Positions 19,171-64,000 of a stretch of 64,000 bases of DNA are shown one piece after another. Within the stretch, counting starts at the first letter, position 1. Every line of letters begins with the position of its first letter. The stretch comes from Panorpa germanica (Eukaryota > Arthropoda > Insecta > Mecoptera > Panorpidae): the NCBI GenBank assembly GCA_963678705.1, contig CAVMBN010000176.1, forward strand, positions 1 through 64,000, given 5' to 3'. A model generated the notes under the pieces. It worked only from the letters and a program-made list of their open reading frames with translations, made no database searches and had not been told where the DNA came from. Both the position numbers and the translations under genes were made by a program.

Positions 19171-19575
19171 TTCGATATAGCTACTCCTTTTGTTTTGAAT
19201 CTTATAAAAAAACTGTTGCACTTTCGTATATTTTCTGGCGCTTTTAATATAGTGAAAATATGTACAAATCCTGCGTAATATATATTATACCATATTTTTT
19301 GAAAAATAGACAGGATTTATGTTTAAAGTTGACTAATAAATGTAAAATATGACGCCATTTTCATTTATATATGGAACAATGTCATTTTATTTCTAACCTC
19401 TAATTTGACATTTTATTTTTAACCATTAATATTGTCTTTTCCTAAATAAAATATGATATAATGTATAATACGTAAGATTTGTACATGTTTTTAGTATACG
19501 ACAAATGCCATGAAACATACTAAAATGCAGTAGTTTTTTTACAAGATTCAAAACAAAAGGTGTAGCTATATCGAA
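19171..19575. mobile_element. Foldback (long-TIR) element
   Basis: The arm starting TTCGATATAGCTACTCCTTT at 19171 reappears reverse-complemented, ending at 19575. The arms pair over about 45 bases with few mismatches. There is no coding capacity. The interior is shared with 4345-4475, and a lone arm occurs near 21132. It sits next to the last, decayed finger of the gene at 19673-20641. Confidence 0.75.
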
Positions 19576-19576
19576 T

Positions 19577-19672
19577 GGTTTTAACCTTAAGTATGTGTTT
19601 TTAAGTAGTTATGTAGTTTTAATTGTAATGATCGACTAAACGTGCTATTGCATTTAACGCAAAAAACGGTTT
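19577..19672 (-). pseudogene. Decayed tenth finger beyond the stop
   Basis: Past the stop of the gene that ends at 19673, the minus strand still reads as a finger in a shifted frame: VFCVKCNSTFSRSLQLKLH, then a broken KTHT. The stop itself (HLV-TAG-K-P) replaces a Leu codon in the HLVLKP linker. So the ancestral protein had at least one more finger, and the foldback element marks where its 3' sequence was cut. Confidence 0.7.
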
Positions 19673-22696: not shown

Positions 22697-23270
22697 TAAT
22701 TTTAATGAGCTACATCGACGTCAACTGTTTGTTATTAGAAAAATAGATCGCCTTCTTCTAAAATGATTGGCAATAACTAACAGTTAAAGAATTAGATAAG
22801 AAGGCATCGATTATCTCATTGTCTACATTAAATATTTATTTTCATAAAACCCGCGAAAAATATTTGTAAATCCACAAAGCAATATCCGTCCGGTACATTA
22901 AACATGTTCCCTCCATTATCAAAGGTTCTAACGAGGCTTCATAACTAAAATAAATTCATTTTAGCACTTGTTGAGAGCAGAATCACATTCAAATTATTAT
23001 CCGTACATTTTATTCAGTTAATATTTTAAGAAAAGAAACTGCAGCATCATCTGAGAATAGTGAAAATTAATATACAAAGGTATTTAACATTTTACTTTCA
23101 TTTGTAAATTTTTCGTTGTGTTTAATTTGTTTCTTTATATATCCTATAATTTTAAATTTATTAGAAAGGAAGAATTATTTAGAAAGTCATGTAAGTGGTT
23201 TAAATGATTCTGTTTACTTTAACTCTATTTATTTTAAGAGTTTTTAAAATACAAAATGTGTTGACAATGA
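22697..23270. other. Intergenic, nothing recognised
   Basis: AT-rich spacer between the TIR element and the gene that leads into the giant array. No supported feature apart from the shared upstream element that follows. Confidence 0.5.
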
Positions 23271-23368: not shown

Positions 23369-25021
23369 ATGGAGGAGTACAAGTCCCAGCAAATAAAACT
23401 GGAAATTGATGAGGGGCTAAACGAACCACAGAATGTAAACGTGGACCTGAAAATGGAAATAAAAGAAGAATGTGTTTTAAGAGAAGTTACGTCATGTGAC
23501 GAAATAAAAGCAGAAATTAAAGATAAACTAGACGGCACTTCAGAGGAATCTGAAGTATTTTCACGGAACAAAGAATATTTCATAAAGTTGGAACCAGATG
23601 TAGGTTCATCCGTATGTGAACAAGAAAAAGATAAAGACCTAATTACTAAGTCGAAGCCTTATGTCTGTGATGTATGTAACAAATCGTTTACCAAGAAGGC
23701 GAAAATCGTAAGACATTTACGGGGACATTCAACAAATTCTAGTCATGAATGTAATAAAGTCTTTAGTGGATCATATAAATTAAAACAATATAAAAAAGAC
23801 AATAATTTACGTTTAAAATCATTTTCTTGTGACGTGTGTAATAAAACGTTTAAACGCCCACATGATTTAAATCGACATAAAAACATTCATTTAGGCCTAA
23901 AGACATTTTCTTGCAATGAATGCAATAAAACATTTACTCAGTCACATCATTTAAAACGACATAAAAACATTCATTTAGGCCTAAAGACATTTTCTTGCAA
24001 TGAATGCAATAAAACATTTACTCAGTCACGACATTTAAAACGACATAAAAACATTCATTTAGGCCTAAAGACATTTTCTTGCAATGAATGCAATAAAACA
24101 TTTACTCAGTCACATCATTTAAAACGACATAAAAACATTCATTTAGGCCTAAAGACATTTTCTTGCAATGAATGCAATAAAACATTTACTCAGTCACGAC
24201 ATTTAAAACGACATAAAAACATTCATTTAGGCCTAAAGACATTTTCTTGCAATGAATGCAATAAAACATTTACTCAGTCACATCATTTAAAACGACATAA
24301 AAACATTCATTTAGGCCTAAAGACATTTTCTTGCAATGAATGCAATAAAACATTTACTCAGTCACGACATTTAAAACGACATAAAAACATTCATTTAGGC
24401 CTAAAGACATTTTCTTGCAATGAATGCAATAAAACATTTACTCAGTCACATCATTTAAAACGACATAAAAACATTCATTTAGGCCTAAAGACATTTTCTT
24501 GCAATGAATGCAATAAAACATTTACTCAGTCACGACATTTAAAACGACATAAAAACATTCATTTAGGCCTAAAGACATTTTCTTGCAATGAATGCAATAA
24601 AACATTTACTCAGTCACATCATTTAAAACGACATAAAAACATTCATTTAGGCCTAAAGACATTTTCTTGCAATGAATGCAATAAAACATTTACTCAGTCA
24701 CGACATTTAAAACGACATAAAAACATTCATTTAGGCCTAAAGACATTTTCTTGCAATGAATGCAATAAAACATTTACTCAGTCACATCATTTAAAACGAC
24801 ATAAAAACATTCATTTAGGCCTAAAGACATTTTCTTGCAATGAATGCAATAAAACATTTACTCAGTCACGACATAAAAACATTCATTTAGGCCTAAAGAC
24901 ATTTTCTTGCAATGAATGCAATAAAACATTTACTCAGTCACATCATTTAAAACGACATAAAAACATTCATTTAGGCCTAAAGACATTTTCTTGCAATGAA
25001 TGCAATAAAACATTTACTTAG
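23369..25021 (+). CDS. C2H2 zinc-finger protein entering the tandem array
   Basis: 550 residues. The family N-terminus is clear (MEEYKSQQIKLE, NVDLKMEIKEE, EYFIKLEP), although the usual IKEEP block has drifted to IKDKLDG. The special finger 1 (YVCDVCNKSF) spans about residues 98-120. Finger 2 (SSHECNKVF..QYKKDN) has lost its first Cys and both His. Finger 3 (residues 152-174) is unique. From about residue 176 the protein is a string of nearly identical 28-residue fingers, alternating TQSHHLKRH and TQSRHLKRH. One of them (24869-24880) is shortened by four residues. The frame ends at TAG 25019-25021, where CAG of the repeat is TAG. About 13 array fingers are included; another 120 family-1 units follow after the stop. 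It could be a real protein truncated by the stop, or the relic head of a longer gene. Confidence 0.75.
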   Translation: MEEYKSQQIKLEIDEGLNEPQNVNVDLKMEIKEECVLREVTSCDEIKAEIKDKLDGTSEESEVFSRNKEYFIKLEPDVGSSVCEQEKDKDLITKSKPYVCDVCNKSFTKKAKIVRHLRGHSTNSSHECNKVFSGSYKLKQYKKDNNLRLKSFSCDVCNKTFKRPHDLNRHKNIHLGLKTFSCNECNKTFTQSHHLKRHKNIHLGLKTFSCNECNKTFTQSRHLKRHKNIHLGLKTFSCNECNKTFTQSHHLKRHKNIHLGLKTFSCNECNKTFTQSRHLKRHKNIHLGLKTFSCNECNKTFTQSHHLKRHKNIHLGLKTFSCNECNKTFTQSRHLKRHKNIHLGLKTFSCNECNKTFTQSHHLKRHKNIHLGLKTFSCNECNKTFTQSRHLKRHKNIHLGLKTFSCNECNKTFTQSHHLKRHKNIHLGLKTFSCNECNKTFTQSRHLKRHKNIHLGLKTFSCNECNKTFTQSHHLKRHKNIHLGLKTFSCNECNKTFTQSRHKNIHLGLKTFSCNECNKTFTQSHHLKRHKNIHLGLKTFSCNECNKTFT

Positions 25022-28000
25022 TCACGACATTTAAAACGACATAAAAACATTCATTTAGGCCTAAAGACATTTTCTTGCAATGAATGCAATAAAACATTTA
25101 CTCAGTCACATCATTTAAAACGACATAAAAACATTCATTTAGGCCTAAAGACATTTTCTTGCAATGAATGCAATAAAACATTTACTCAGTCACGACATTT
25201 AAAACGACATAAAAACATTCATTTAGGCCTAAAGACATTTTCTTGCAATGAATGCAATAAAACATTTACTCAGTCACGACATTTAAAACGACATAAAAAC
25301 ATTCATTTAGGCCTAAAGACATTTTCTTGCAATGAATGCAATAAAACATTTACTCAGTCACATCATTTAAAACGACATAAAAACATTCATTTAGGCCTAA
25401 AGACATTTTCTTGCAATGAATGCAATAAAACATTTACTTAGTCACATCATTTAAAACGACATAAAAACATTCATTTAGGCCTAAAGACATTTTCTTGCAA
25501 TGAATGCAATAAAACATTTACTCAGTCACATCATTTAAAACGACATAAAAACATTCATTTAGGCCTAAAGACATTTTCTTGCAATGAATGCAATAAAACA
25601 TTTACTCAGTCACATCATTTAAAACGACATAAAAACATTCATTTAGGCCTAAAGACATTTTCTTGCAATGAATGCAATAAAACATTTACTTAGTCACGAC
25701 ATTTAAAACGACATAAAAACATTCATTTAGGCCTAAAGACATTTTCTTGCAATGAATGCAATAAAACATTTACTCAGTCACATCATTTAAAACGACATAA
25801 AAACATTCATTTAGGCCTAAAGACATTTTCTTGCAATGAATGCAATAAAACATTTACTCAGTCACATCATTTAAAACGACATAAAAACATTCATTTAGGC
25901 CTAAAGACATTTTCTTGCAATGAATGCAATAAAACATTTACTCAGTCACGACATTTAAAACGACATAAAAACATTCATTTAGGCCTAAAGACATTTTCTT
26001 GCAATGAATGCAATAAAACATTTACTCAGTCATTTTATTTAAAACGACATAAAAACATTCATTTAGGCCTAAAGACATTTTCTTGCAATGAATGCAATAA
26101 AACATTTACTTAGTCACATCATTTAAAACGACATAAAAACATTCATTTAGGCCTAAAGACATTTTCTTGCAATGAATGCAATAAAACATTTACTCAGTCA
26201 CATCATTTCAAACGACATAAAAACATTCATTTAGGCCTAAAGACATTTTCTTGCAATGAATGCAATAAAACATTTACTCAGTCACGACATTTAAAACGAC
26301 ATAAAAACATTCATTTAGGCCTAAAGACATTTTCTTGCAATGAATGCAATAAAACATTTACTCAGTCATTTCATTTAAAACGACATAAAAACATTCATTT
26401 AGGCCTAAAGACATTTTCTTGCAATGAATGCAATAAAACATTTACTTAGTCACGACATTTAAAACGACATAAAAACATTCATTTAGGCCTAAAGACATTT
26501 TCTTGCAATGAATGCAATAAAACATTTACTCAGTCACATCATTTAAAACGACATAAAAACATTCATTTAGGCCTAAAGACATTTTCTTGCAATGAATGCA
26601 ATAAAACATTTACTCAGTCACATCATTTAAAACGACATAAAAACATTCATTTAGGCCTAAAGACATTTTCTTGCAATGAATGCAATAAAACATTTACTCA
26701 GTCAAGACATTTAAAACGACATAAAAACATTCATTTAGGCCTAAAGACATTTTCTTGCAATGAATGCAATAAAACATTTACTCAGTCATTTCATTTAAAA
26801 CGACATAAAAACATTCATTTAGGCCTAAAGACATTTTCTTGCAATGAATGCAATAAAACATTTACTTAGTCACGACATTTAAAACGACATAAAAACATTC
26901 ATTTAGGCCTAAAGACATTTTCTTGCAATGAATGCAATAAAACATTTACTCAGTCACATCATTTAAAACGACATAAAAACATTCATTTAGGCCTAAAGAC
27001 ATTTTCTTGCAATGAATGCAATAAAACATTTACTCAGTCACATCATTTAAAACGACATAAAAACATTCATTTAGGCCTAAAGACATTTTCTTGCAATGAA
27101 TGCAATAAAACATTTACTCAGTCACGACATTTAAAACGACATAAAAACATTCATTTAGGCCTAAAGACATTTTCTTGCAATGAATGCAATAAAACATTTA
27201 CTCAGTCACATCATTTAAAACGACATAAAAACATTCATTTAGGCCTAAAGACATTTTCTTGCAATGAATGCAATAAAACATTTACTCAGTCACATCATTT
27301 AAAACGACATAAAAACATTCATTTAGGCCTAAAGACATTTTCTTGCAATGAATGCAATAAAACATTTACTCAGTCACGACATTTAAAACGACATAAAAAC
27401 ATTCATTTAGGCCTAAAGACATTTTCTTGCAATGAATGCAATAAAACATTTACTCAGTCACGACATTTAAAACGACATAAAAACATTCATTTAGGCCTAA
27501 AGACATTTTCTTGCAATGAATGCAATAAAACATTTACTCAGTCACGACATTTAAAACGACATAAAAACATTCATTTAGGCCTAAAGACATTTTCTTGCAA
27601 TGAATGCAATAAAACATTTACTCAGTCACGACATTTAAAACGACATAAAAACATTCATTTAGGCCTAAAGACATTTTCTTGCAATGAATGCAATAAAACA
27701 TTTACTCAGTCACATCATTTAAAACGACATAAAAACATTCATTTAGGCCTAAAGACATTTTCTTGCAATGAATGCAATAAAACATTTACTCAGTCACGAC
27801 ATTTAAAACGACATAAAAACATTCATTTAGGCCTAAATACATTTTCTTGCAATGAATGCAATAAAACATTTACTCAGTCACGACATTTAAAACGACATAA
27901 AAACATTCATTTAGGCCTAAAGACATTTTCTTGCAATGAATGCAATAAAACATTTACTCAGTCATTTCATTTAAAACGACATAAAAACATTCATTTAGGC

Positions 28001-31000
28001 CTAAAGACATTTTCTTGCAATGAATGCAATAAAACATTTACTCAGTCACATCATTTAAAACGACATAAAAACATTCATTTAGGCCTAAAGACATTTTCTT
28101 GCAATGAATGCAATAAAACATTTACTCAGTCACGACATTTAAAACGACATAAAAACATTCATTTAGGCCTAAAGACATTTTCTTGCAATGAATGCAATAA
28201 AACATTTACTCAGTCACGACATTTAAAACGACATAAAAACATTCATTTAGGCCTAAATACATTTTCTTGCAATGAATGCAATAAAACATTTACTCAGTCA
28301 CGACATTTAAAACGACATAAAAACATTCATTTAGGCCTAAAGACATTTTCTTGCAATGAATGCAATAAAACATTTACTCAGTCATTTCATTTAAAACGAC
28401 ATAAAAACATTCATTTAGGCCTAAAGACATTTTCTTGCAATGAATGCAATAAAACATTTACTCAGTCACATCATTTAAAACGACATAAAAACATTCATTT
28501 AGGCCTAAAGACATTTTCTTGCAATGAATGCAATAAAACATTTACTCAGTCACGACATTTAAAACGACATAAAAACATTCATTTAGGCCTAAAGACATTT
28601 TCTTGCAATGAATGCAATAAAACATTTACTCAGCCACGACATTTAAAACGACATAAAAACATTCATTTAGGCCTAAAGACATTTTCTTGCAATGAATGCA
28701 ATAAAACATTTACTTAGTCACGACATTTAAAACGACATAAAAACATTCATTTAGGCCTAAAGACATTTTCTTGCAATGAATGCAATAAAACATTTACTCA
28801 GTCACGACATTTAAAACGACATAAAAACATTCATTTAGGCCTAAAGACATTTTCTTGCAATGAATGCAATAAAACATTTACTCAGTCACATCATTTAAAA
28901 CGACATAAAAACATTCATTTAGGCCTAAAGACATTTTCTTGCAATGAATGCAATAAAACATTTACTCAGTTACGACATTTAAAACGACATAAAAACATTC
29001 ATTTAGGCCTAAAGACATTTTCTTGCAATGAATGCAATAAAACATTTACTTAGTCACGACATTTAAAACGACATAAAAACATTCATTTAGGCCTAAAGAC
29101 ATTTTCTTGCAATGAATGCAATAAAACATTTACTCAGTCATTTCATTTAAAACGACATAAAAACATTCATTTAGGCCTAAAGACATTTTCTTGCAATGAA
29201 TGCAATAAAACATTTACTTAGTCACGACATTTAAAACGACATAAAAACATTCATTTAGGCCTAAAGACATTTTCTTGCAATGAATGCAATAAAACATTTA
29301 CTCAGTCATTTCATTTAAAACGACATAAAAACATTCATTTAGGCCTAAAGACATTTTCTTGCAATGAATGCAATAAAACATTTACTCAGTCACATCATTT
29401 AAAACGACATAAAAACATTCATTTAGGCCTATAGACATTTTCTTGCAATGAATGCAATAAAACATTTACTCAGTCACGACATTTAAAACGACATAAAAAC
29501 ATTCATTTAGGCCTAAAGACATTTTCTTGCAATGAATGCAATAAAACATTTACTTAGTCACGACATTTAAAACGACATAAAAACATTCATTTAGGCCTAA
29601 AGACATTTTCTTGCAATGAATGCAATAAAACATTTACTCAGTCATTTCATTTAAAACGACATAAAAACATTCATTTAGGCCTAAAGACATTTTCTTGCAA
29701 TGAATGCAATAAAACATTTACTCAGTCACATCATTTAAAACGACATAAAAACATTCATTTAGGCCTAAAGACATTTTCTTGCAATGAATGCAATAAAACA
29801 TTTACTCAGTCACGACATTTAAAACGACATAAAAACATTCATTTAGGCCTAAAGACATTTTCTTGCAATGAATGCAATAAAACATTTACTCAGTCACGAC
29901 ATTTAAAACGACATAAAAACATTCATTTAGGCCTAAAGACATTTTCTTGCAATGAATGCAATAAAACATTTACTCAGTCACATCATTTAAAACGACATAA
30001 AAACATTCATTTAGGCCTAAAGACATTTTCTTGCAATGAATGCAATAAAACATTTACTCAGTCACATCATTTAAAACGACATAAAAACATTCATTTAGGC
30101 CTAAAGACATTTTCTTGCAATGAATGCAATAAAACATTTACTCAGTCACATCATTTAAAACGACATAAAAACATTCATTTAGGCCTAAAGACATTTTCTT
30201 GCAATGAATGCAATAAAACATTTACTCAGTCACGACATTTAAAACGACATAAAAACATTCATTTAGGCCTAAAGACATTTTCTTGCAATGAATGCAATAA
30301 AACATTTACTCAGTCACGACATTTAAAACGACATAAAAACATTCATTTAGGCCTAAAGACATTTTCTTGCAATGAATGCAATAAAACATTTACTCAGTCA
30401 CATCATTTAAAACGACATAAAAACATTCATTTATTCCTAAAGACATTTTCTTGCAATGAATGCAATAAAACATTTACTAAGTCACATCATTTAAAACGAC
30501 ATAAAAACATTCATTTAGGCCTAAAGACATTTTCTTGCAATGAATGCAATAAAACATTTACTCAGTCACATCATTTAAAACGACATAAAAACATTCATTT
30601 AGGCCTAAAGACATTTTCTTGCAATGAATGCAATAAAACATTTACTCAGTCACGACATTTAAAACGACATAAAAACATTCATTTAGGCCTAAAGACATTT
30701 TCTTGCAATGAATGCAATAAAACATTTACTCAGTCACGATCATTTAAAACGACATAAAAACATTCATTTAGGCCTAAAGACATTTTCTTGCAATGAATGC
30801 AATAAAACATTTACTCAGTCACATCATTTAAAACGACATAAAAACATTCATTTAGGCCTAAAGACATTTTCTTGCAATGAATGCAATAAAACATTTACTC
30901 AGTCACGACATTTAAAACGACATAAAAACATTCATTTAGGCCTAAAGACATTTTCTTGCAATGAATGCAATAAAACATTTACTCAGTCACGACATTTAAA

Positions 31001-34000
31001 ACGACATAAAAACATTCATTTAGGCCTAAAGACATTTTCTTGCAATGAATGCAATAAAACATTTACTCAGTCACGACATTTAAAACGACATAAAAACATT
31101 CATTTAGGCCTAAAGACATTTTCTTGCAATGAATGCAATAAAACATTTACTCAGTCACTATCATTTAAAACGACATAAAAACATTCATTTAGGCCTAAAG
31201 ACATTTTCTTGCAATGAATGCAATAAAACATTTACTCAGTCACATCATTTAAAACGACATAAAAACATTCATTTAGGCCTAAAGACATTTTCTTGCAATG
31301 AATGCAATAAAACATTTACTCAGTCACATCATTTAAAACGACATAAAAACATTCATTTAGGCCTAAAGACATTTTCTTGCAATGAATGCAATAAAACATT
31401 TACTCAGTCACGACATTTAAAACGACATAAAAACATTCATTTAGGCCTAAAGACATTTTCTTGCAATGAATGCAATAAAACATTTACTCAGTCACATCAT
31501 TTAAAACGACATAAAAACATTCATTTAGGCCTAAAGACATTTTCTTGCAATGAATGCAATAAAACATTTACTCAGTCACGACATTTAAAACGACATAAAA
31601 ACATTCATTTAGGCCTAAAGACATTTTCTTGCAATGAATGCAATAAAACATTTACTCAGTCACGACATTTAAAACGACATAAAAACATTCATTTAGGCCT
31701 AAAGACATTTTCTTGCAATGAATGCAATAAAACATTTACTCAGTCACATCATTTAAAACGACATAAAAACATTCATTTAGGCCTAAAGACATTTTCTTGC
31801 AATGAATGCAATAAAACATTTACTCAGTCACGACATTTAAAACGACATAAAAACATTCATTTAGGCCTAAAGACATTTTCTTGCAATGAATGCAATAAAA
31901 CATTTACTCAGTCACATCATTAAAACGACATAAAAACATTCATTTAGGCCTAAAGACATTTTCTTGCAATGAATGCAATAAAACATTTACTCAGTCACGA
32001 CATTTAAAACGACATAAAAACATTCATTTAGGCCTAAAGACATTTTCTTGCAATGAATGCAATAAAACATTTACTCAGTCACGACATTTAAAACGACATA
32101 AAAACATTCATTTAGGCCTAAAGACATTTTCTTGCAATGAATGCAATAAAACATTTACTCAGTCACGACATTTAAAACGACATAAAAACATTCATTTAGG
32201 CCTAAAGACATTTTCTTGCAATGAATGCAATAAAACATTTACTCAGTCACATCATTTAAAACGACATAAAAACATTCATTTAGGCCTAAAGACATTTTCT
32301 TGCAATGAATGCAATAAAACATTTACTCAGTCACGACATTTAAAACGACATAAAAACATTCATTTAGGCCTAAAGACATTTTCTTGCAATGAATGCAATA
32401 AAACATTTACTCAGTCACGACATTTAAAACGACATAAAAACATTCATTTAGGCCTAAAGACATTTTCTTGCAATGAATGCAATAAAACATTTACTCAGTC
32501 ACATCATTTAAAACGACATAAAAACATTCATTTAGGCCTAAAGACATTTTCTTGCAATGAATGCAATAAAACATTTACTCAGTCACATCATTTAAAACGA
32601 CATAAAAACATTCATTTAGGCCTAAAGACATTTTCTTGCAATGAATGCAATAAAACATTTACTCAGTCACGACATTTAAAACGACATAAAAACATTCATT
32701 TAGGCCTAAAGACATTTTCTTGCAATGAATGCAATAAAACATTTACTCAGTCACGACATTTAAAACGACATAAAAACATTCATTTAGGCCTAAAGACATT
32801 TTCTTGCAATGAATGCAATAAAACATTTACTCAGTCACATCATTTAAAACGACATAAAAACATTCATTTAGGCCTAAAGACATTTTCTTGCAATGAATGC
32901 AATAAAACATTTACTCAGTCACGACATTTAAAACGACATAAAAACATTCATTTAGGCCTAAAGACATTTTCTTGCAATGAATGCAATAAAACATTTACTC
33001 AGTCACGACATTTAAAACGACATAAAAACATTCATTTAGGCCTAAAGACATTTTCTTGCAATGAATGCAATAAAACATTTACTCAGTCACGACATTTAAA
33101 ACGACATAAAAACATTCATTTAGGCCTAAAGACATTTTCTTGCAATGAATGCAATAAAACATTTACTCAGTCACATCATTTAAAACGACATAAAAACATT
33201 CATTTAGGCCTAAAGACATTTTCTTGCAATGAATGCAATAAAACATTTACTCAGTCACGACATTTAAAACGACATAAAAACATTCATTTAGGCCTAAAGA
33301 CATTTTCTTGCAATGAATGCAATAAAACATTTACTCAGTCACGACATTTAAAACGACATAAAAACATTCATTTAGGCCTAAAGACATTTTCTTGCGATGA
33401 ATGCAATAAAACATTTACTCAGTCACATCATTTAAAACGACATAAAAACATTCATTTAGGCCTAAAGACATTTTCTTGCAATGAATGCAATAAAACATTT
33501 ACTCAGTCACGACATTTAAAACGACATAAAAACATTCATTTAGGCCTAAAGACATTTTCTTGCAATGAATGCAATAAAACATTTACTCAGTCACGACATT
33601 TAAAACGACATAAAAACATTCATTTAGGCCTAAAGACATTTTCTTGCAATGAATGCAATAAAACATTTACTCAGTCACGACATTTAAAACGACATAAAAA
33701 CATTCATTTAGGCCTAAAGACATTTTCTTGCAATGAATGCAATAAAACATTTACTCAGTCACGACATTTAAAACGACATAAAAACATTCATTTAGGCCTA
33801 AAGACATTTTCTTGCAATGAATGCAATAAAACATTTACTCAGTCACATCATTTAAAACGACATAAAAACATTCATTTAGGCCTAAAGACATTTTCTTGCA
33901 ATGAATGCAATAAAACATTTACTCAGTCACGACATTTAAAACGACATAAAAACATTCATTTAGGCCTAAAGACATTTTCTTGCAATGAATGCAATAAAAC

Positions 34001-35139
34001 ATTTACTCAGTCACATCATTTAAAACGACATAAAAACATTCATTTAGGCCTAAAGACATTTTCTTGCAATGAATGCAATAAAACATTTACTCAGTCACGA
34101 CATTTAAAACGACATAAAAACATTCATTTAGGCCTAAAGACATTTTCTTGCAATGAATGCAATAAAACATTTACTCAGTCACGACATTTAAAACGACATA
34201 AAAACATTCATTTAGGCCTAAAGACATTTTCTTGCAATGAATGCAATAAAACATTTACTCAGTCACGACATTTAAAACGACATAAAAACATTCATTTAGG
34301 CCTAAAGACATTTTCTTGCAATGAATGCAATAAAACATTTACTCAGTCACGACATTTAAAACGACATAAAAACATTCATTTAGGCCTAAAGACATTTTCT
34401 TGCAATGAATGCAATAAAACATTTACTCAGTCACATCATTTAAAACGACATAAAAACATTCATTTAGGCCTAAAGACATTTTCTTGCAATGAATGCAATA
34501 AAACATTTACTCAGTCACGACATTTAAAACGACATAAAAACATTCATTTAGGCCTAAAGACATTTTCTTGCAATGAATGCAATAAAACATTTACTCAGTC
34601 ACGACATTTAAAACGACATAAAAACATTCATTTAGGCCTAAAGACATTTTCTTGCAATGAATGCAATAAAACATTTACTCAGTCACGACATTTAAAACGA
34701 CATAAAAACATTCATTTAGGCCTAAAGACATTTTCTTGCAATGAATGCAATAAAACATTTACTCAGTCACGACATTTAAAACGACATAAAAACATTCATT
34801 TAGGCCTAAAGACATTTTCTTGCGATGAATGCAATAAAACATTTACTCAGTCACGACATTTAAAACGACATAAAAACATTCATTTAGGCCTAAAGACATT
34901 TTCTTGCAATGAATGCAATAAAACATTTACTCAGTCACGACATTTAAAACGACATAAAAACATTCATTTAGGCCTAAAGACATTTTCTTGCAATGAATGC
35001 AATAAAACATTTACTCAGTCACATCATTTAAAACGACATAAAAACATTCATTTAGGCCTAAAGACATTTTCTTGCAATGAATGCAATAAAACATTTACTC
35101 AGTCACGACATTTAAAACGACATAAAAACATTCATTTAC
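23884..35139 (+). repeat. 84-bp finger-derived tandem array, family 1
   Basis: About 134 head-to-tail 84-bp units, each encoding CNECNKTFTQSxHLKRHKNI plus HLGLKTFS. Units are almost identical, including at third codon positions. The main variation is one codon of the recognition helix: CAT (His), CGA (Arg) or TTT (Phe). Near the left the His and Arg forms alternate strictly (168-bp period). Between 25000 and 29600 a five-unit (420-bp) period is visible. In-frame TAG codons start at 25019, 25439, 25691, 26111, 26447, 26867, 28715, 29051, 29219 and 29555 (all the same CAG-to-TAG change), and one AAG-to-TAG lies at 29432. Single-base indels lie near 30740, 31160 and 31921. Confidence 0.97.
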
Positions 35140-35160
35140 ATTTAGCTTTAAAACACACAT
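35140..35160 (+). other. Junction between the two array families
   Basis: After CATAAAAACATTCATTTA of family 1, the sequence switches to CATTTAGCTTTAAAA and then repeats CACATTTAGCTTTAAAACC of family 2. The join duplicates part of the family-2 linker. It contains TAG (35143-35145) and TAA (35149-35151) in the family-2 frame, so the two families are not one continuous frame here. Confidence 0.85.
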
Positions 35161-50100: not shown

Positions 50101-53100
50101 AAAAACACACATTTAGCTTTAAAACCATTCTCTTGCAACAAATGTAATAAATCGTTTAGTCAATCATCAAATTTAAAACGACATAAAAACACACATTTAG
50201 CTTTAAAACCATTCTCTTGCAACAAATGTAATAAATCGTTTAGTTATTTATCAAATTTAAAAGTACATAAAAACACACATTTAGCTTTAAAACCATTCTC
50301 TTGCAACAAATGTAATAAAACGTTTAGTCATTTATCAAATTTAAAAGTACATAAAAACACACATTTAGCTTTAAAACCATTCTCTTGCAACAAATGTAAT
50401 AAATCGTTTAGTCAATCATCAAATTTAAAACGACATAAAAACACACATTTAGCTTTAAAACCATTCTCTTGCAACGAATGTAATAAATCGTTTAGTCAAT
50501 CATCAAATTTAAAACGACATAAAAACACACATTTACCTTTAAAACCATTCTCTTGCAACGAATGTAATAAATCGTTTACTTATTTATCAAATTTAAAACG
50601 ACATAAAAACACACATTTACCTTTAAAACCATTCTCTTGCAACGAATGTAATAAATCGTTTACTTATTTATCAAATTTAAAACGACATAAAAACACACAT
50701 TTACCTTTAAAACCATTCTCTTGCAACGAATGTAATAAATCGTTTAGTCAATCATCAAATTTAAAACGACATAAAAACACACATTTAGCTTTAAAACCAT
50801 TCTCTTGCAACGAATGTAATAAATCGTTTAGTCAATCATCAAATTTAAAACGACATAAAAACACACATTTACCTTTAAAACCATTCTCTTGCAACGAATG
50901 TAATAAATCGTTTACTTATTTATCAAATTTAAAACGACATAAAAACACACATTTACCTTTAAAACCATTCTCTTGCAACGAATGTAATAAAACGTTTAGT
51001 CATTTATCAAATTTAAAAGTACATAAAAACACACATTTAGCTTTAAAACCATTCTCTTGCAACGAATGTAATAAATCGTTTAGTCAATCATCAAATTTAA
51101 AACGACATAAAAACACACATTTAGCTTTAAAACCATTCTCTTGCAACGAATGTAATAAATCGTTTAGTCAATCATCAAATTTAAAACGACATAAAAACAC
51201 ACATTTACCTTTAAAACCATTCTCTTGCAACGAATGTAATAAATCGTTTACTTATTTATCAAATTTAAAACGACATAAAAACACACATTTAGCTTTAAAA
51301 CCATTCTCTTGCAACGAATGTAATAAATCGTTTAGTCAGTTATCAAATTTAAAACGACATAAAAACACGCATTTAGCTTTAAAACCAATCTCTCTTAACG
51401 ACTGTAATAAATCGTTTAGTCAATTATCAAATTTAAAAGTACATAAAAACACACATTTAGCTTTAAAACCATTCTCTTGCAACAAATGTAATAAAACGTT
51501 TAGTCATTTATCAAATTTAAAAGTACATAAAAACACACATTTAGCTTTAAAACCATTCTCTTGCAACGAATGTAATAAATCGTTTAGTCAATCATCAAAT
51601 TTAAAACGACATAAAAACACACATTTAGCTTTAAAACCATTCTCTTGCAACGAATGTAATAAATCGTTTAGTCAATCATCAAATTTAAAACGACATAAAA
51701 ACACACATTTACCTTTAAAACCATTCTCTTGCAACGAATGTAATAAATCGTTTACTTATTTATCAAATTTAAAACGACATAAAAACACACATTTACCTTT
51801 AAAACCATTCTCTTGCAACGAATGTAATAAAACGTTTAGTCATTTATCAAATTTAAAAGTACATAAAAACACACATTTACCTTTAAAACCATTCTCTTGC
51901 AACGAATGTAATAAAACGTTTAGTCATTTATCAAATTTAAAAGTACATAAAAACACACATTTAGCTTTAAAACCATTCTCTTGCAACGAATGTAATAAAT
52001 CGTTTAGTCAATCATCAAATTTAAAACGACATAAAAACACACATTTACCTTTAAAACCATTCTCTTGCAACGAATGTAATAAATCGTTTACTTATTTATC
52101 AAATTTAAAACGACATAAAAACACACATTTACCTTTAAAACCATTCTCTTGCAACGAATGTAATAAAACGTTTAGTCATTTATCAAATTTAAAAGTACAT
52201 AAAAACACACATTTACCTTTAAAACCATTCTCTTGCAACGAATGTAATAAAACGTTTAGTCATTTATCAAATTTAAAAGTACATAAAAACACACATTTAG
52301 CTTTAAAACCATTCTCTTGCAACGAATGTAATAAATCGTTTAGTCAATCATCAAATTTAAAACGACATAAAAACACACATTTACCTTTAAAACCATTCTC
52401 TTGCAACGAATGTAATAAATCGTTTACTTATTTATCAAATTTAAAACGACATAAAAACACACATTTACCTTTAAAACCATTCTCTTGCAACGAATGTAAT
52501 AAAACGTTTAGTCATTTATCAAATTTAAAAGTACATAAAAACACACATTTACCTTTAAAACCATTCTCTTGCAACGAATGTAATAAAACGTTTAGTCATT
52601 TATCAAATTTAAAAGTACATAAAAACACACATTTAGCTTTAAAACCATTCTCTTGCAACGAATGTAATAAAACGTTTAGTCATTTATCAAATTTAAAAGT
52701 ACATAAAAACACACATTTACCTTTAAAACCATTCTCTTGCAACGAATGTAATAAAACGTTTAGTCATTTATCAAATTTAAAAGTACATAAAAACACACAT
52801 TTAGCTTTAAAACCATTCTCTTGCAACGAATGTAATAAAACGTTTAGTCATTTATCAAATTTAAAAGTACATAAAAACACACATTTAGCTTTAAAACCAT
52901 TCTCTTGCAACGAATGTAATAAAACGTTTAGTCATTTATCAAATTTAAAAGTACATAAAAACACACATTTAGCTTTAAAACCATTCTCTTGCAACGAATG
53001 TAATAAAACGTTTAGTCATTTATCAAATTTAAAAGTACATAAAAACACACATTTACCTTTAAAACCATTCTCTTGCAACGAATGTAATAAATCGTTTAGT

Positions 53101-55644
53101 CATTTATCAAATTTAAAAGTACATAAAAACACACATTTAGCTTTAAAACCATTCTCTTGCAACGAATGTAATAAAACGTTTAGTCATTTATCAAATTTAA
53201 AACGACATAAAAACACACATTTAGCTTTAAAACCATTCTCTTGCAACGAATGTAATAAATCGTTTACTTATTTATCAAATTTAAAAGTACATAAAAACAC
53301 ACATTTACCTTTAAAACCATTCTCTTGCAACGAATGTAATAAAACGTTTAGTCATTTATCAAATTTAAAAGTACATAAAAACACACATTTACCTTTAAAA
53401 CCATTCTCTTGCAACGAATGTAATAAAACGTTTAGTCATTTATCAAATTTAAAAGTACATAAAAACACACATTTAGCTTTAAAACCATTCTCTTGCAACA
53501 AATGTAATAAAACGTTTAGTCATTTATCAAATTTAAAAGTACATAAAAACACACATTTAGCTTTAAAACCATTCTCTTGCAACGAATGTAATAAAACGTT
53601 TAGTCATTTATCAAATTTAAAAGTACATAAAAACACACATTTAGCTTTAAAACCATTCTCTTGCAACGAATGTAATAAATCGTTTAGTCAATCATCAAAT
53701 TTAAAACGACATAAAAACACACATTTAGCTTTAAAACCATTCTCTTGCAACGAATGTAATAAATCGTTTAGTCAATCATCAAATTTAAAACGACATAAAA
53801 ACACACATTTACCTTTAAAACCATTCTCTTGCAACGAATGTAATAAATCGTTTACTTATTTATCAAATTTAAAACGACATAAAAACACACATTTACCTTT
53901 AAAACCATTCTCTTGCAACGAATGTAATAAAACGTTTAGTCATTTATCAAATTTAAAAGTACATAAAAACACACATTTACCTTTAAAACCATTCTCTTGC
54001 AACGAATGTAATAAAACGTTTACTTATTTATCAAATTTAAAAGTACATAAAAACACACATTTAGCTTTAAAACCATTCTCTTGCAACGAATGTAATAAAT
54101 CGTTTAGTCAATCATCAAATTTAAAACGACATAAAAACACACATTTAGCTTTAAAACCATTCTCTTGCAACGAATGTAATAAATCGTTTAGTCAATCATC
54201 AAATTTAAAACGACATAAAAACACACATTTAGCTTTAAAACCATTCTCTTGCAACGAATGTAATAAATCGTTTAGTCAATCATCAAATTTAAAACGACAT
54301 AAAAACACACATTTACCTTTAAAACCATTCTCTTGCAACGAATGTAATAAATCGTTTACTTATTTATCAAATTTAAAACGACATAAAAACACACATTTAC
54401 CTTTAAAACCATTCTCTTGCAACGAATGTAATAAAACGTTTAGTCATTTATCAAATTTAAAAGTACATAAAAACACACATTTACCTTTAAAACCATTCTC
54501 TTGCAACGAATGTAATAAAACGTTTAGTCATTTATCAAATTTAAAAGTACATAAAAACACACATTTAGCTTTAAAACCATTCTCTTGCAACGAATGTAAT
54601 AAATCGTTTACTTATTTATCAAATTTAAAAGTACATAAAAACACACATTTACCTTTAAAACCATTCTCTTGCAACGAATGTAATAAAACGTTTAGTCATT
54701 TATCAAATTTAAAAGTACATAAAAACACACATTTACCTTTAAAACCATTCTCTTGCAACGAATGTAATAAAACGTTTAGTCATTTATCAAATTTAAAAGT
54801 ACATAAAAACACACATTTAGCTTTAAAACCATTCTCTTGCAACAAATGTAATAAAACGTTTAGTCATTTATCAAATTTAAAAGTACATAAAAACACACAT
54901 TTAGCTTTAAAACCATTCTCTTGCAACGAATGTAATAAAACGTTTAGTCATTTATCAAATTTAAAAGTACATAAAAACACACATTTAGCTTTAAAACCAT
55001 TCTCTTGCAACGAATGTAATAAATCGTTTAGTCAATCATCAAATTTAAAACGACATAAAAACACACATTTAGCTTTAAAACCATTCTCTTGCAACGAATG
55101 TAATAAATCGTTTAGTCAATCATCAAATTTAAAACGACATAAAAACACACATTTACCTTTAAAACCATTCTCTTGCAACGAATGTAATAAATCGTTTACT
55201 TATTTATCAAATTTAAAACGACATAAAAACACACATTTACCTTTAAAACCATTCTCTTGCAACGAATGTAATAAAACGTTTAGTCATTTATCAAATTTAA
55301 AAGTACATAAAAACACACATTTACCTTTAAAACCATTCTCTTGCAACGAATGTAATAAAACGTTTACTTATTTATCAAATTTAAAAGTACATAAAAACAC
55401 ACATTTAGCTTTAAAACCATTCTCTTGCAACGAATGTAATAAATCGTTTAGTCAATCATCAAATTTAAAACGACATAAAAACACACATTTAGCTTTAAAA
55501 CCATTCTCTTGCAACGAATGTAATAAATCGTTTAGTCAATCATCAAATTTAAAACGACATAAAAACACACATTTAGCTTTAAAACCATTCTCTTGCAACG
55601 AATGTAATAAATCGTTTAGTCAATCATCAAATTTAAAAACGACA
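35152..55644 (+). other. 20.5-kb stop-free zinc-finger frame without ATG
   Basis: From the codon after TAA 35149-35151 to the codon before TAA 55645-55647, I find no stop and no net indel: 20,493 bases, 6,831 codons, about 244 fingers. Unit phase is kept exactly; for example the positions 35161 and 55321 are 240 units apart. No in-frame ATG occurs because none exists in the unit. The frame closes because of one extra A near 55637. It may be a coding exon of a giant protein that starts elsewhere by splicing, or non-coding satellite that is stop-free only because units were recently homogenised. By eye I could miss a rare substitution. Confidence 0.75.
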
Positions 55645-55731
55645 TAAAAACACACATTTACCTTTAAAACCATTCTCTTGCAACGAATGTAATAAATCGT
55701 TTACTTATTTATCAAATTTAAAACGACATAA

Positions 55732-58700
55732 AAACCACATTTAGCTTTAAAACCATTCTCTTGCAACGAATGTAATAAATCGTTTACTTATTTATCAAAT
55801 TTAAAAGTACATAAAAACACACATTTACCTTTAAAACCATTCTCTTGCAACGAATGTAATAAAACGTTTAGTCATTTATCAAATTTAAAAGTACATAAAA
55901 ACACACATTTAGCTTTAAAACCATTCTCTTGCAACGAATGTAATAAATCGTTTACTTATTTATCAAATTTAAAAGTACATAAAAACACACATTTACCTTT
56001 AAAACCATTCTCTTGCAACGAATGTAATAAAACGTTTAGTCATTTATCAAATTTAAAAGTACATAAAAACACACATTTAGCTTTAAAACCATTCTCTTGC
56101 AACGAATGTAATAAATCGTTTACTTATTTATCAAATTTAAAAGTACATAAAAACACACATTTACCTTTAAAACCATTCTCTTGCAACGAATGTAATAAAA
56201 CGTTTAGTCATTTATCAAATTTAAAAGTACATAAAAACACACATTTAGCTTTAAAACCATTCTCTTGCAACGAATGTAATAAATCGTTTACTTATTTATC
56301 AAATTTAAAAGTACATAAAAACACACATTTACCTTTAAAACCATTCTCTTGCAACGAATGTAATAAAACGTTTAGTCATTTATCAAATTTAAAAGTACAT
56401 AAAAACACACATTTAGCTTTAAAACCATTCTCTTGCAACGAATGTAATAAATCGTTTACTTATTTATCAAATTTAAAAGTACATAAAAACACACATTTAC
56501 CTTTAAAACCATTCTCTTGCAACGAATGTAATAAAACGTTTAGTCATTTATCAAATTTAAAAGTACATAAAAACACACATTTAGCTTTAAAACCATTCTC
56601 TTGCAACGAATGTAATAAATCGTTTACTTATTTATCAAATTTAAAAGTACATAAAAACACACATTTACCTTTAAAACCATTCTCTTGCAACGAATGTAAT
56701 AAAACGTTTAGTCATTTATCAAATTTAAAAGTACATAAAAACACACATTTACCTTTAAAACCATTCTCTTGCAACGAATGTAATAAATCGTTTACTTATT
56801 TATCAAATTTAAAAGTACATAAAAACACACATTTACCTTTAAAACCATTCTCTTGCAACGAATGTAATAAAACGTTTAGTCATTTATCAAATTTAAAAGT
56901 ACATAAAAACACACATTTAGCTTTAAAACCATTCTCTTGCAACGAATGTAATAAATCGTTTACTTATTTATCAAATTTAAAAGTACATAAAAACACACAT
57001 TTACCTTTAAAACCATTCTCTTGCAACGAATGTAATAAAACGTTTAGTCATTTATCAAATTTAAAAGTACATAAAAACACACATTTAGCTTTAAAACCAT
57101 TCTCTTGCAACGAATGTAATAAATCGTTTACTTATTTATCAAATTTAAAAGTACATAAAAACACACATTTACCTTTAAAACCATTCTCTTGCAACGAATG
57201 TAATAAAACGTTTAGTCATTTATCAAATTTAAAAGTACATAAAAACACACATTTAGCTTTAAAACCATTCTCTTGCAACGAATGTAATAAATCGTTTACT
57301 TATTTATCAAATTTAAAAGTACATAAAAACACACATTTAGCTTTAAAACCATTCTCTTGCAACGAATGTAATAAATCGTTTACTTATTTATCAAATTTAA
57401 AAGTACATAAAAACACACATTTACCTTTAAAACCATTCTCTTGCAACGAATGTAATAAAACGTTTAGTCATTTATCAAATTTAAAAGTACATAAAAACAC
57501 ACATTTAGCTTTAAAACCATTCTCTTGCAACGAATGTAATAAATCGTTTACTTATTTATCAAATTTAAAAGTACATAAAAACACACATTTAGCTTTAAAA
57601 CCATTCTCTTGCAACGAATGTAATAAATCGTTTACTTATTTATCAAATTTAAAAGTACATAAAAACACACATTTACCTTTAAAACCATTCTCTTGCAACG
57701 AATGTAATAAAACGTTTAGTCATTTATCAAATTTAAAAGTACATAAAAACACACATTTAGCTTTAAAACCATTCTCTTGCAACGAATGTAATAAATCGTT
57801 TACTTATTTATCAAATTTAAAAGTACATAAAAACACACATTTAGCTTTAAAACCATTCTCTTGCAACGAATGTAATAAATCGTTTAGTCAATCATCAAAT
57901 TTAAAACGACATAAAAACACACATTTACCTTTAAAACCATTCTCTTGCAACGAATGTAATAAATCGTTTACTTATTTATCAAATTTAAAACGACATAAAA
58001 ACACACATTTACCTTTAAAACCATTCTCTTGCAACGAATGTAATAAAACGTTTAGTCATTTATCAAATTTAAAAGTACATAAAAACACACATTTACCTTT
58101 AAAACCATTCTCTTGCAACGAATGTAATAAAACGTTTAGTCATTTATCAAATTTAAAAGTACATAAAAACACACATTTAGCTTTAAAACCATTCTCTTGC
58201 AACGAATGTAATAAAACGTTTAGTCATTTATCAAATTTAAAAGTACATAAAAACACACATTTAGCTTTAAAACCATTCTCTTGCAACGAATGTAATAAAT
58301 CGTTTACTTATTTATCAAATTTAAAAGTACATAAAAACACACATTTACCTTTAAAACCATTCTCTTGCAACGAATGTAATAAAACGTTTAGTCATTTATC
58401 AAATTTAAAAGTACATAAAAACACACATTTACCTTTAAAACCATTCTCTTGCAACGAATGTAATAAAACGTTTAGTCATTTATCAAATTTAAAAGTACAT
58501 AAAAACACACATTTAGCTTTAAAACCATTCTCTTGCAACGAATGTAATAAATCGTTTACTTATTTATCAAATTTAAAAGTACATAAAAACACACATTTAC
58601 CTTTAAAACCATTCTCTTGCAACGAATGTAATAAAACGTTTAGTCATTTATCAAATTTAAAAGTACATAAAAACACACATTTAGCTTTAAAACCATTCTC

Positions 58701-61700
58701 TTGCAACGAATGTAATAAATCGTTTACTTATTTATCAAATTTAAAAGTACATAAAAACACACATTTACCTTTAAAACCATTCTCTTGCAACGAATGTAAT
58801 AAAACGTTTAGTCATTTATCAAATTTAAAAGTACATAAAAACACACATTTAGCTTTAAAACCATTCTCTTGCAACGAATGTAATAAATCGTTTACTTATT
58901 TATCAAATTTAAAAGTACATAAAAACACACATTTACCTTTAAAACCATTCTCTTGCAACGAATGTAATAAAACGTTTAGTCATTTATCAAATTTAAAAGT
59001 ACATAAAAACACACATTTAGCTTTAAAACCATTCTCTTGCAACGAATGTAATAAATCGTTTACTTATTTATCAAATTTAAAAGTACATAAAAACACACAT
59101 TTACCTTTAAAACCATTCTCTTGCAACGAATGTAATAAAACGTTTAGTCATTTATCAAATTTAAAAGTACATAAAAACACACATTTAGCTTTAAAACCAT
59201 TCTCTTGCAACGAATGTAATAAATCGTTTACTTATTTATCAAATTTAAAAGTACATAAAAACACACATTTACCTTTAAAACCATTCTCTTGCAACGAATG
59301 TAATAAAACGTTTAGTCATTTATCAAATTTAAAAGTACATAAAAACACACATTTAGCTTTAAAACCATTCTCTTGCAACGAATGTAATAAATCGTTTACT
59401 TATTTATCAAATTTAAAAGTACATAAAAACACACATTTACCTTTAAAACCATTCTCTTGCAACGAATGTAATAAAACGTTTAGTCATTTATCAAATTTAA
59501 AAGTACATAAAAACACACATTTAGCTTTAAAACCATTCTCTTGCAACGAATGTAATAAATCGTTTACTTATTTATCAAATTTAAAAGTACATAAAAACAC
59601 ACATTTAGCTTTAAAACCATTCTCTTGCAACGAATGTAATAAATCGTTTACTTATTTATCAAATTTAAAAGTACATAAAAACACACATTTACCTTTAAAA
59701 CCATTCTCTTGCAACGAATGTAATAAATCGTTTAGTCAATCATCAAATTTAAAACGACATAAAAACACACATTTAGCTTTAAAACCATTCTCTTGCAACA
59801 AATGTAATAAATCGTTTAGTTATTTATCAAATTTAAAAGTACATAAAAACACACATTTAGCTTTAAAACCATTCTCTTGCAACAAATGTAATAAAACGTT
59901 TAGTCATTTATCAAATTTAAAAGTACATAAAAACACACATTTAGCTTTAAAACCATTCTCTTGCAACAAATGTAATAAAACGTTTAGTCATTTATCAAAT
60001 TTAAAAGTACATAAAAACACACATTTAGCTTTAAAACCATTCTCTTGCAACAAATGTAATAAAACGTTTAGTCATTTATCAAATTTAAAAGTACATAAAA
60101 ACACACATTTAGCTTTAAAACCATTCTCTTGCAACAAATGTAATAAAACGTTTAGTCATTTATCAAATTTAAAAGTACATAAAAACACACATTTAGCTTT
60201 AAAACCATTCTCTTGCAACAAATGTAATAAATCGTTTAGTCAATCATCAAATTTAAAACGACATAAAAACACACATTTAGCTTTAAAACCATTCTCTTGC
60301 AACAAATGTAATAAATCGTTTAGTTATTTATCAAATTTAAAACGACATAAAAACACGCATTTAGCTTTAAAACCATTCTCTCTTAACGACTGTAATAAAT
60401 CGTTTAGTCAATTATCAAATTTAAAAGTACATAAAAACACACATTTAGCTTTAAAACCATTCTCTTGCAACGATTGTAATAAATCGTTTAGTTATTTATC
60501 AAATTTAAAACGACATAAAAACACGCATTTAGCTTTAAAACCAATCTCTCTTAACGACTGTAATAAATCGTTTAGTCAATTATCAAATTTAAAAGTACAT
60601 AAAAACACACATTTAGCTTTAAAACCATTCTCTTGCAACAAATGTAATAAAACGTTTAGTCATTTATCAAATTTAAAAGTACATAAAAACACACATTTAG
60701 CTTTAAAACCATTCTCTTGCAACAAATGTAATAAATCGTTTAGTTATTTATCAAATTTAAAAGTACATAAAAACACACATTTAGCTTTAAAACCATTCTC
60801 TTGCAACGATTGTAATAAATCGTTTAGTTATTTATCAAATTTAAAACGACATAAAAACACGCATTTAGCTTTAAAACCAATCTCTCTTAACGACTGTAAT
60901 AAATCGTTTAGTCAATTATCAAATTTAAAAGTACATAAAAACACACATTTAGCTTTAAAACCATTCTCTTGCAACAAATGTAATAAAACGTTTAGTCATT
61001 TATCAAATTTAAAAGTACATAAAAACACACATTTAGCTTTAAAACCATTCTCTTGCAACAAATGTAATAAATCGTTTAGTTATTTATCAAATTTAAAAGT
61101 ACATAAAAACACACATTTAGCTTTAAAACCATTCTCTTGCAATGATTGTAATAAATCGTTTAGTTATTTATCAAATTTAAAACGACATAAAAACACACAT
61201 TTACCTTTAAAACCATTCTCTTGCAACGATTGTAATAAATCGTTTACTTATTTATCAAATTTAAAAGTACATAAAAACACACATTTAGCTTTAAAACCAT
61301 TCTCTTGCAACAAATGTAATAAAACGTTTAGTTATTTATCAAATTTAAAACGACATAAAAACACACATTTACCTTTAAAACCATTCTCTTGCAACGATTG
61401 TAATAAATCGTTTAGTTATTTATCAAATTTAAAAGTACATAAAAACACACATTTACCTTTAAAACCATTCTCTTGCAACAAATGTAATAAAACGTTTAGT
61501 CATTTATCAAATTTAAAAGTACATAAAAACACACATTTAGCTTTAAAACCATTCTCTTGCAACAAATGTAATAAAACGTTTAGTCAATCATCAAATTTAA
61601 AACGACATAAAAACACACATTTAGCTTTAAAACCATTCTCTTGCAACAAATGTAATAAATCGTTTAGTTATTTATCAAATTTAAAACGACATAAAAACAC

Positions 61701-62172
61701 GCATTTAGCTTTAAAACCATTCTCTCTTAACGACTGTAATAAATCGTTTAGTCAATTATCAAATTTAAAAGTACATAAAAACACACATTTAGCTTTAAAA
61801 CCATTCTCTTGCAACGATTGTAATAAATCGTTTAGTTATTTATCAAATTTAAAACGACATAAAAACACGCATTTAGCTTTAAAACCAATCTCTCTTAACG
61901 ACTGTAATAAATCGTTTAGTCAATTATCAAATTTAAAAGTACATAAAAACACACATTTAGCTTTAAAACCATTCTCTTGCAACAAATGTAATAAAACGTT
62001 TAGTCATTTATCAAATTTAAAAGTACATAAAAACACACATTTACCTTTAAAACCATTCTCTTGCAACGAATGTAATAAATCGTTTAGTCAATCATCAAAT
62101 TTAAAACGACATAAAAACACACATTTACCTTTAAAACCATTCTCTTGCAACGATTGTAATAAATCGTTTAGT
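55732..62172 (+). other. Second stop-free zinc-finger frame, 6.4 kb
   Basis: The extra A near 55637 is compensated by one missing base near 55735 (AAAACCACATT instead of AAAACACACATT). The same frame is then open for 6,441 bases (2,147 codons) until TAG 62173-62175. A second TAG follows at 62257-62259; both are TAT-to-TAG changes in the FSYLSNL unit. If the two indels at 55637/55735 are sequencing errors, this joins the preceding frame into about 27 kb. Confidence 0.7.
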
Positions 62173-62849
62173 TAGTTATCAAATTTAAAAGTACATAAAA
62201 ACACACATTTACCTTTAAAACCATTCTCTTGCAACGACTGTAATAAATCGTTTAGTTAGTTATCAAATTTAAAACGACATAAAAACACACATTTACCTTT
62301 AAAACCATTCTCTTGCAACGAATGTAATAAATCGTTTAGTTATTTATCAAATTTAAAACGACATAAAAACACACATTTAGCTTTAAAACCATTCTCTTGC
62401 AACGAATGTAATAAATCGTTTAGTCAGTTATCAAATTTAAAAGTACATAAAAACACACATTTAGCTTTAAAACCATTCTCTTGCAACGATTGTAATAAAT
62501 CGTTTAGTCAGTTATCAAATTTAAAACGACATAAAAACACGCATTTAGCTTTAAAACCAATCTCTCTTAACGACTGTAATAAATCGTTTAGTCAATTATC
62601 AAATTTAAAAGTACATAAAAACACACATTTAGCTTTAAAACCATTCTCTTGCAACAAATGTAATAAAACGTTTAGTCATTTATCAAATTTAAAAGTACAT
62701 AAAAACACACATTTAGCTTTAAAACCATTCTCTTGCAACGAATGTAATAAATCGTTTAGTCAATCATCAAATTTAAAACGACATAAAAACACACATTTAG
62801 CTTTAAAACCATTCTCTTGCAACGAATGTAATAAATCGTTTAGTCAATC

Positions 62850-63810
62850 ATCAAATTTTAAAACGACATAAAAACACACATTTACCTTTAAAACCATTCT
62901 CTTGCAACGAATGTAATAAATCGTTTACTTATTTATCAAATTTAAAACGACATAAAAACACACATTTACCTTTAAAACCATTCTCTTGCAACGAATGTAA
63001 TAATCGTTTACTTATTTATCAAATTTAAAACGACATAAAAAACACACATTTACCTTTAAAACCATTCTCTTGCAACGAATGTAATAAATCGTTTAGTCAA
63101 TCATCAAATTTAAAACGACATAAAAACACACATTTAGCTTTAAAACCATTCTCTTGCAACGAATGTAATAAATCGTTTAGTCAATCATCAAATTTAAAAC
63201 GACATAAAAACACACATTTACCTTTAAAACCATTCTCTTGCAACGAATGTAATAAATCGTTTACTTATTTATCAAATTTAAAACGACATAAAAACACACA
63301 TTTACCTTTAAAACCATTCTCTTGCAACGAATGTAATAAAACGTTTAGTCATTTATCAAATTTAAAAGTACATAAAAACACACATTTAGCTTTAAAACCA
63401 TTCTCTTGCAACGAATGTAATAAATCGTTTAGTCAATCATCAAATTTAAAACGACATAAAAAACACACATTTAGCTTTAAAACCATTCTCTTGCAACGAA
63501 TGTAATAAATCGTTTAGTCAATCATCAAATTTAAAACGACATAAAAACACACATTTACCTTTAAAACCATTCTCTTGCAACGAATGTAATAAATCGTTTA
63601 CTTATTTATCAAATTTAAAACGACATAAAAACACACATTTAGCTTTAAAACCATTCTCTTGCAACGAATGTAATAAATCGTTTAGTCAGTTATCAAATTT
63701 AAAACGACATAAAAACACGCATTTAGCTTTAAAACCAATCTCTCTTAACGACTGTAATAAATCGTTTAGTCAATTATCAAATTTAAAAGTACATAAAAAA
63801 CACTTTAGCT
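62850..63810 (+). other. Indel-rich segment of family-2 array
   Basis: Five small indels fall within 1 kb: an extra T near 62858, a missing A near 63002, extra A near 63041 and near 63460, and two bases missing near 63800 (AAAAAACACTTTAGC). Most lie in or next to A or T runs. This contrasts with about 20 kb of perfect phase to the left. It suggests poor consensus here or true decay at the array margin. Confidence 0.8.
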
Positions 63811-64000
63811 TTAAAACCATTCTCTTGCAACAAATGTAATAAAACGTTTAGTCATTTATCAAATTTAAAAGTACATAAAAACACACATTTAGCTTTAAAA
63901 CCATTCTCTTGCAACGAATGTAATAAATCGTTTAGTCAATCATCAAATTTAAAACGACATAAAAACACACATTTAGCTTTAAAACCATTCTCTTGCAACG

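Follow-up and report, generated by a model that had tools for sequence, protein, structure and literature searches.

Coding minisatellites of zinc-finger genes at satellite scale in Panorpa germanica

A C2H2 zinc-finger gene on contig CAVMBN010000176.1 (C191, 73,000 bp) of the Panorpa germanica assembly GCA_963678705.1 (464 Mb in 249 contigs) runs into an array of hundreds of 84-bp units, each one finger, most of which lies outside the gene's reading frame; the window analysed here, the first 64,000 bases of C191, holds the gene and 477 of these units. We put a probability of roughly 0.8 on an explanation in which a large, young C2H2 gene family holds its fingers as in-frame 84-bp tandem repeats, and in a few of its members out-of-register recombination of units, by unequal exchange between sister chromatids or homologues and by gene conversion, would have run away to give a finger exon of hundreds of units. 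At the window locus a gene of the MEEYKSQQ subfamily would have grown array A, an array B like that on contig C130 beside a head of the MEDYKSQN subfamily would have been fused behind it, and the frame would have been shut by a stop itself copied among units. As the copied stop closes the frame, most of the window array would thereby be freed from coding constraint and become a locus-private satellite.

The extent of the array was established in two ways. Tandem Repeats Finder (TRF) reports 84-bp arrays at 23,865-35,138 and 35,150-64,000, while anchoring on finger starts gives 479 anchors in the window, spaced by exactly 84 bases in 467 of 478 intervals. The first two anchors, at 23,735 and 23,822, are ordinary divergent fingers, which leaves 477 array units from 23,906 to the window end, the number of consecutive one-finger units that an earlier sequence-only reading of the window had estimated. 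That reading also had the array begin inside a normal gene and run off the window, as it does: over the whole contig there are 586 anchors (spacing 84 in 573 of 585), and the array is still running at base 73,000. Identity at a lag of 84 bases, in 2-kb bins, is 0.84-0.99 inside the array against 0.28-0.44 upstream, so that chance is no issue. The C..C-12-H-3-H pattern is kept in 449 of the 479 units, the gene product scores 246.8 bits (E 7.5e-76) for the Pfam family zf-C2H2 (PF00096, cut-off 25.2) and one array-B segment scores 201.5 bits. The units are thus in-frame tandem repeats of one finger each, as in Prdm9-type coding minisatellites, and over the 49 kb to the contig end they form the long, homogeneous head-to-tail array of a satellite; the many chromosomal sites of a satellite are not found by exact-word counts of either array.

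The sequence-only reading had seen one minisatellite here, where there are two, A and B, of different gene subfamilies and fused head to tail (Table 1). A single satellite is ruled out by the 20 of 84 bases at which the A and B consensuses differ and by the different heads associated with them. Array A is the more uniform, with a mean divergence from its consensus of 1.3% (129 full units) against 4.1% in array B (338 full units within the window). Their join, marked by a frame-shifting partial duplication, is probably real.

The frame that opens at the ATG at 23,369 closes at the TAG at 25,019, so that the array is not a single reading frame. One coherent giant gene in the window is ruled out by this frame end together with the methionine-free frame of array B. 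A CAG>TAG change is carried by 10 array-A units, units at 30,698, 31,119 and 31,876 shift the frame, and across the window 20 of 479 units hold a stop in their own phase. In array B the first Cys is lost from 19 full-length units and from one frameshifted unit, and such Cys-less units were evidently copied. Since stops and frameshifts have been tolerated and copied, the rest of the array behaves as a non-coding satellite tail, and we conclude that the window array beyond its first 14 fingers is such a tail, presumably without function. The eleven rare changes in array A (1 synonymous, 9 missense, one of these counted in two units, and 1 nonsense, where 25, 70 and 6% are expected without selection) show no sign of coding constraint. 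Judged by frame, then, the window array is not read as part of a protein in the manner of Prdm9 repeats; the conclusion is not extended to the arrays on contigs C210 and C5, where long frames stay open.

Both arrays can be placed within the family. Outside C191 the window gene's head and upstream DNA have six copies, 93-97% identical, on C220, C226 and C5. In the five that were read a regex finds 6, 7, 8, 9 and 18 fingers. A stop separates the head of the 18-finger copy from its fingers, and two of the other copies have a frame that runs only as far as an inserted element, behind which the fingers are decayed. In two C220 paralogs (L031 at about 3320-3580, L032 at about 3080-3330) a short, transposon-like insert with inverted ends sits at the identical point of the finger exon. 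Judged by these sequence relationships, array A appears to have grown from a MEEYKSQQ-subfamily gene whose close paralogs have 6-18 fingers. A satellite lying far from any zinc-finger source gene, an observation that the sequence-only reading thought would refute it, is not seen in genome-wide counts of exact words: a 68-base A word is present 126 times, as often as in C191 by itself, and a 38-base B word 255 times in forward orientation, which again equals its count in C191, and 51 times in reverse, every reverse copy lying at C130:295-8,820. C130 bears an MEDYKSQN-subfamily head at 13,066-13,536 within an open frame of 1,309 codons, and the best B matches outside C191 and C130 are 93% identical, the top one in an MEDYKSQN gene on C5. 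From this head and this match B would go with MEDYKSQN-type genes, and the window would join two arrays of different origin. The array words of C130 switch register several times, so that its array is not one frame.

C130 was considered as a continuation of C191 and is ruled out, as in each of them the head stands at the 5' side and the 3' side is missing. That C191 is an allele of an assembled locus is not supported: its flank at 5,900-8,400 has no match elsewhere longer than 1 kb and better than 94% (short repeat fragments reach 96%), and for the window head region the identity rises to 97%, over 1.2 kb at C220:41,871, a locus of 6 fingers. C130 also holds, at 19043-19778 (+) and some 5.5 kb from the MEDYKSQN head, a copy, at 95% identity, of the DNA upstream of the window gene; this copy may bear on how A and B met.

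The sequence-only reading had attributed the growth to unequal exchange; the scale it supposed is confirmed, and exchange between misaligned units fits the structure. Exact repeats in C191 are displaced by whole units (within a base), mostly by 2, 4 or 6 and also by 29, about 147 and about 149, the longest spanning 3,830 bp, and within the B unit all four combinations of variants occur in 33 of 66 pairs of independent variable sites. Unit-wise displaced repeats and mosaic B units fit repeated out-of-register exchange and conversion. In 443 units of array B, with one divergent unit omitted and eight unit types set aside as recombinants, a count made to gauge coding constraint gives 6 rare events. 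Rare mutations being so few, the arrays either grew recently or are strongly homogenised. The strongest competitor, which we hold possible but doubtful, is amplification by replication slippage or by reinsertion of an extrachromosomal circle, with no unequal exchange. It agrees with shifts of 2, 4 and 6 units being the commonest among long exact repeats and with an alternating two-unit tendency in array B (TRF period 168; identity of 0.248 between units two apart and 0.087 between neighbours), but to explain the displacements of 29 to about 149 units and the mosaic units, exchange or conversion over long range is needed in addition.

The locus is not an isolated freak, at least four loci of the family having very long arrays. 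On C5 a gene of a third subfamily (16,669,963-16,700,054) has 352 anchors and 351 units, 296 of them of 84 bp, 51 of 87 and 4 of 86; the C2H2 pattern is kept in 350, and the first several units are divergent, like those of an ordinary gene. Its paralog at 15.59 Mb has 24 fingers, and the two align in their outer parts, which take in some fingers, at 93.8% identity over 4,701 bp and 94.4% over 7,960 bp. Assembled at both ends, the pair shows a gene before and after expansion. The ATG frame of the longer gene runs for 3,750 aa and 129 fingers; the array frame breaks at 16,681,141, 16,681,479, 16,682,405 and 16,690,180, each time in one particular run of A (7 long at the breaks, 8 or 5 in other units), and because all four share this run slippage or homopolymer sequencing error is likely behind them. 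On C210 an MEDYKSQN head (18,799-19,275) lies within an open frame of 6,430 codons that must extend up to the contig start or close to it. The C210 unit word has 88 copies in the genome, all on this contig and all 88 in one 84-bp register over 215 unit lengths; this register rests on words, between which compensating indels are possible, in an array sampled over 340 bases.

Open frames of more than 1,000 codons were found for two of the matches listed in the MEDYKSQN head search (best 150 of 1,808 candidates), for none of those listed in the MEEYKSQQ head search (best 150 of 5,275), and for 12 of the best 150 general finger matches (of 16,071 candidates), all 12 being the C5 locus. Such lengths are uncommon among the scored matches, and further giant arrays may exist. 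Among the matches listed, most of the heads and most of the best-scoring fingers lie on C5 (24.8 Mb), from about 1 to 23 Mb: C5 is a chromosome rich in one zinc-finger family.

The C210 and C5 frames bring in the view that some arrays are functional, encoding giant proteins of more than 100 zinc fingers whose length is selected, and we regard this as unlikely. The single C210 register with a 6,430-codon frame that includes the head speaks for it, as does the C5 gene with its 129-finger frame, its nearly invariant C2H2 pattern and its breaks confined to one A-run. Against it, the window frame shuts after 14 fingers, stop-bearing and Cys-less units are copied there and no ATG occurs in the long B frame; the C130 array shifts between registers several times; and, with so few rare events in array B, the apparent youth of the arrays may be all that has kept open frames from decaying. 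On the boldest form of this view, which we also regard as unlikely, some of the runaway arrays, C210 foremost, would be translated, giving proteins of over 200 near-identical fingers, longer than any zinc-finger protein known, which would read DNA repeated in simple tandem; new ones would go on arising in the family, and the window locus would be one that has lost its frame and is turning into a satellite.

Improbable among the alternatives, and the weakest, is an assembly artefact, in which the assembler expanded a real but short array or joined two haplotypes or loci: three of the four very long arrays lie at or near contig ends, C191 has the round size of 73,000 and a haplotype join could mimic the pieces of 51,455-59,644 that recur 12.3-12.5 kb away with few differences, but the C5 array is flanked at either end by non-array sequence in the interior of a 24.8-Mb contig, unit variants follow one another in no periodic order, no exact repeat in C191 is longer than the 3,830 bp that typical long reads exceed, and the A/B junction has a partial duplication of its own, not a clean shared overlap.

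Several points weigh against runaway recombination in a young finger family, our preferred explanation. Array A bears no trace of local duplication, the likeness of neighbours at lag 1 being 0.256 where 0.293 is expected, and the rare changes in A are a small sample. Slippage or circle reinsertion could leave traces similar to those of exchange. Array lengths depend on the assembler: an array is cut by the contig end in C191 and in C210 and comes within 300 bases of it in C130, so that three of the true lengths may differ from those assembled, and the exact 73,000 bp of C191 suggests a break made in scaffolding or curation. The A/B junction was observed once. In C130 the reading of the array covers a 500-base sample, which shows B-type units.

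Zinc-finger arrays ordinarily hold from a handful to a few dozen fingers, far fewer than here, and known systems provide partial parallels. Prdm9 in mice, as described in PMC3890296, has 84-bp one-finger units in 7-17 repeats, apart from one allele of 2 repeats, and shares with the arrays here the unit, turnover in copy number and variation of DNA-contact residues; the present case differs in having 351 to 586 units at the counted arrays, several loci, an early closure of the frame in the window gene and no PR domain found in the 550-aa product. Poly-finger expansions of the ZF271/APEZ type in the milkweed bug and the pea aphid, with 3-45 repeats per protein in the account of PMC6444547, are likewise lineage-specific, clustered and of high turnover, with pseudogenes. 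For the CapA satellite an origin from a NOS1AP intron has been suggested (as cited in PMC8210747); there too genic sequence would have turned into satellite DNA, but CapA is intronic and here the unit is the repeat of a protein-coding domain. The teleost piccolo zinc-finger exon, present in 8-16 copies credited to unequal crossover (PMC3484663), is similar in the repeated copying of a finger-coding exon, and differs in that whole exons, of another protein and finger type, were copied.

Among the papers listed in searches of the open-access literature we found no finger-derived satellite, giant finger array or protein with at least 100 fingers. The 84-bp logic is that of the Prdm9 type; in the present case such a coding minisatellite has grown to the size of a satellite at several loci within a single family. 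The passage from coding repeat to satellite has seemingly been caught in progress, in a genome that offers matched short paralogs (24 fingers against 351 units, with outer parts about 94% identical) beside open- and closed-frame loci. How satellites arise from coding DNA, and what normally limits the length of finger arrays, can thereby be tested directly; the case is also a warning that assemblies and gene models can fail at zinc-finger clusters.

Table 1. Features of the window (first 64,000 bases of C191)
Feature	Position	Strand	Remarks
Zinc-finger gene reading frame: N-terminal head and 14 C2H2 fingers	23369..25021	+	550 aa; closed by TAG 25,019-25,021 within array A
Finger-free N-terminal head, MEEYKSQQ subfamily	23369..23655	+	93-97% identical DNA copies on C220, C226, C5
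First two fingers, divergent (one of them degenerate), in the part of the gene that did not expand	23735..23905	+	similar fingers in paralogs L031-L035
Array A	23906..35138	+	84-bp units; peptide of 13 letters (not shown), then [R/H/F], then HLKRHKNIHLGLKT
A/B junction	35139..35175	+	partial local duplication (CATTTAGCTTTAAAAC twice) shifting the frame; 109-bp unit at 35,067
Array B	35176..64000	+	84-bp units of type FSCNECNK[S/T]FS[H/Q/Y][L/S]SNLK[V/R]HKNTHL[A/P]LKP (28 letters); goes on to base 73,000
Open frame inside array B	35152..55644	+	6,831 codons, no methionine codon, no ATG start
Block recurring in pieces 12,347-12,515 bp downstream (about 147-149 units)	51455..59644	+	3-5 mismatches per piece; 54,857-55,734 uncovered
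Further zinc-finger frame	426-1061	-	
Further zinc-finger frame	3034-4047	+	
Further zinc-finger frame	4742-5890	+	
Further zinc-finger frame	17789-18475	-	
Further zinc-finger frame	19673-20710	-	

The head of the window gene has no match in Pfam, residues 1-114 of the 550-aa product giving none and hence none to the ZAD of ZAD zinc-finger proteins. A Pfam search of the same product finds no PR/SET domain, and the PR/SET and KRAB arrangement upstream of the fingers that marks the PRDM9 family is not found in it. The head (23369-23655) contains five psi-K-x-E motifs, against a shuffle mean of 0.88; five are present in each of four heads of three subfamilies (the window head, L009, L033 and C5:16669963), exceeding shuffles. 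We take psi-K-x-E to be the SUMO-attachment consensus and, perhaps, a sign of a repressor.

The gene stands in a cluster, with five more zinc-finger frames of the same extended family in the window. Between these frames lies a Copia-type retrotransposon (8478-12476, minus strand) with an unbroken frame of 1,332 aa and gag, integrase and RVT_2 domains. A dispersed repeat of about 300 bp at 22400-22700, with an inverted copy at 1613-1870, recurs on many contigs, mostly at 96-98% identity, and stops some 670 bp upstream of the ATG at 23,369. A second dispersed repeat, at 7690-8275, is also present on many contigs, about 84-91% identical over most of its length, its copies sometimes standing in a row.

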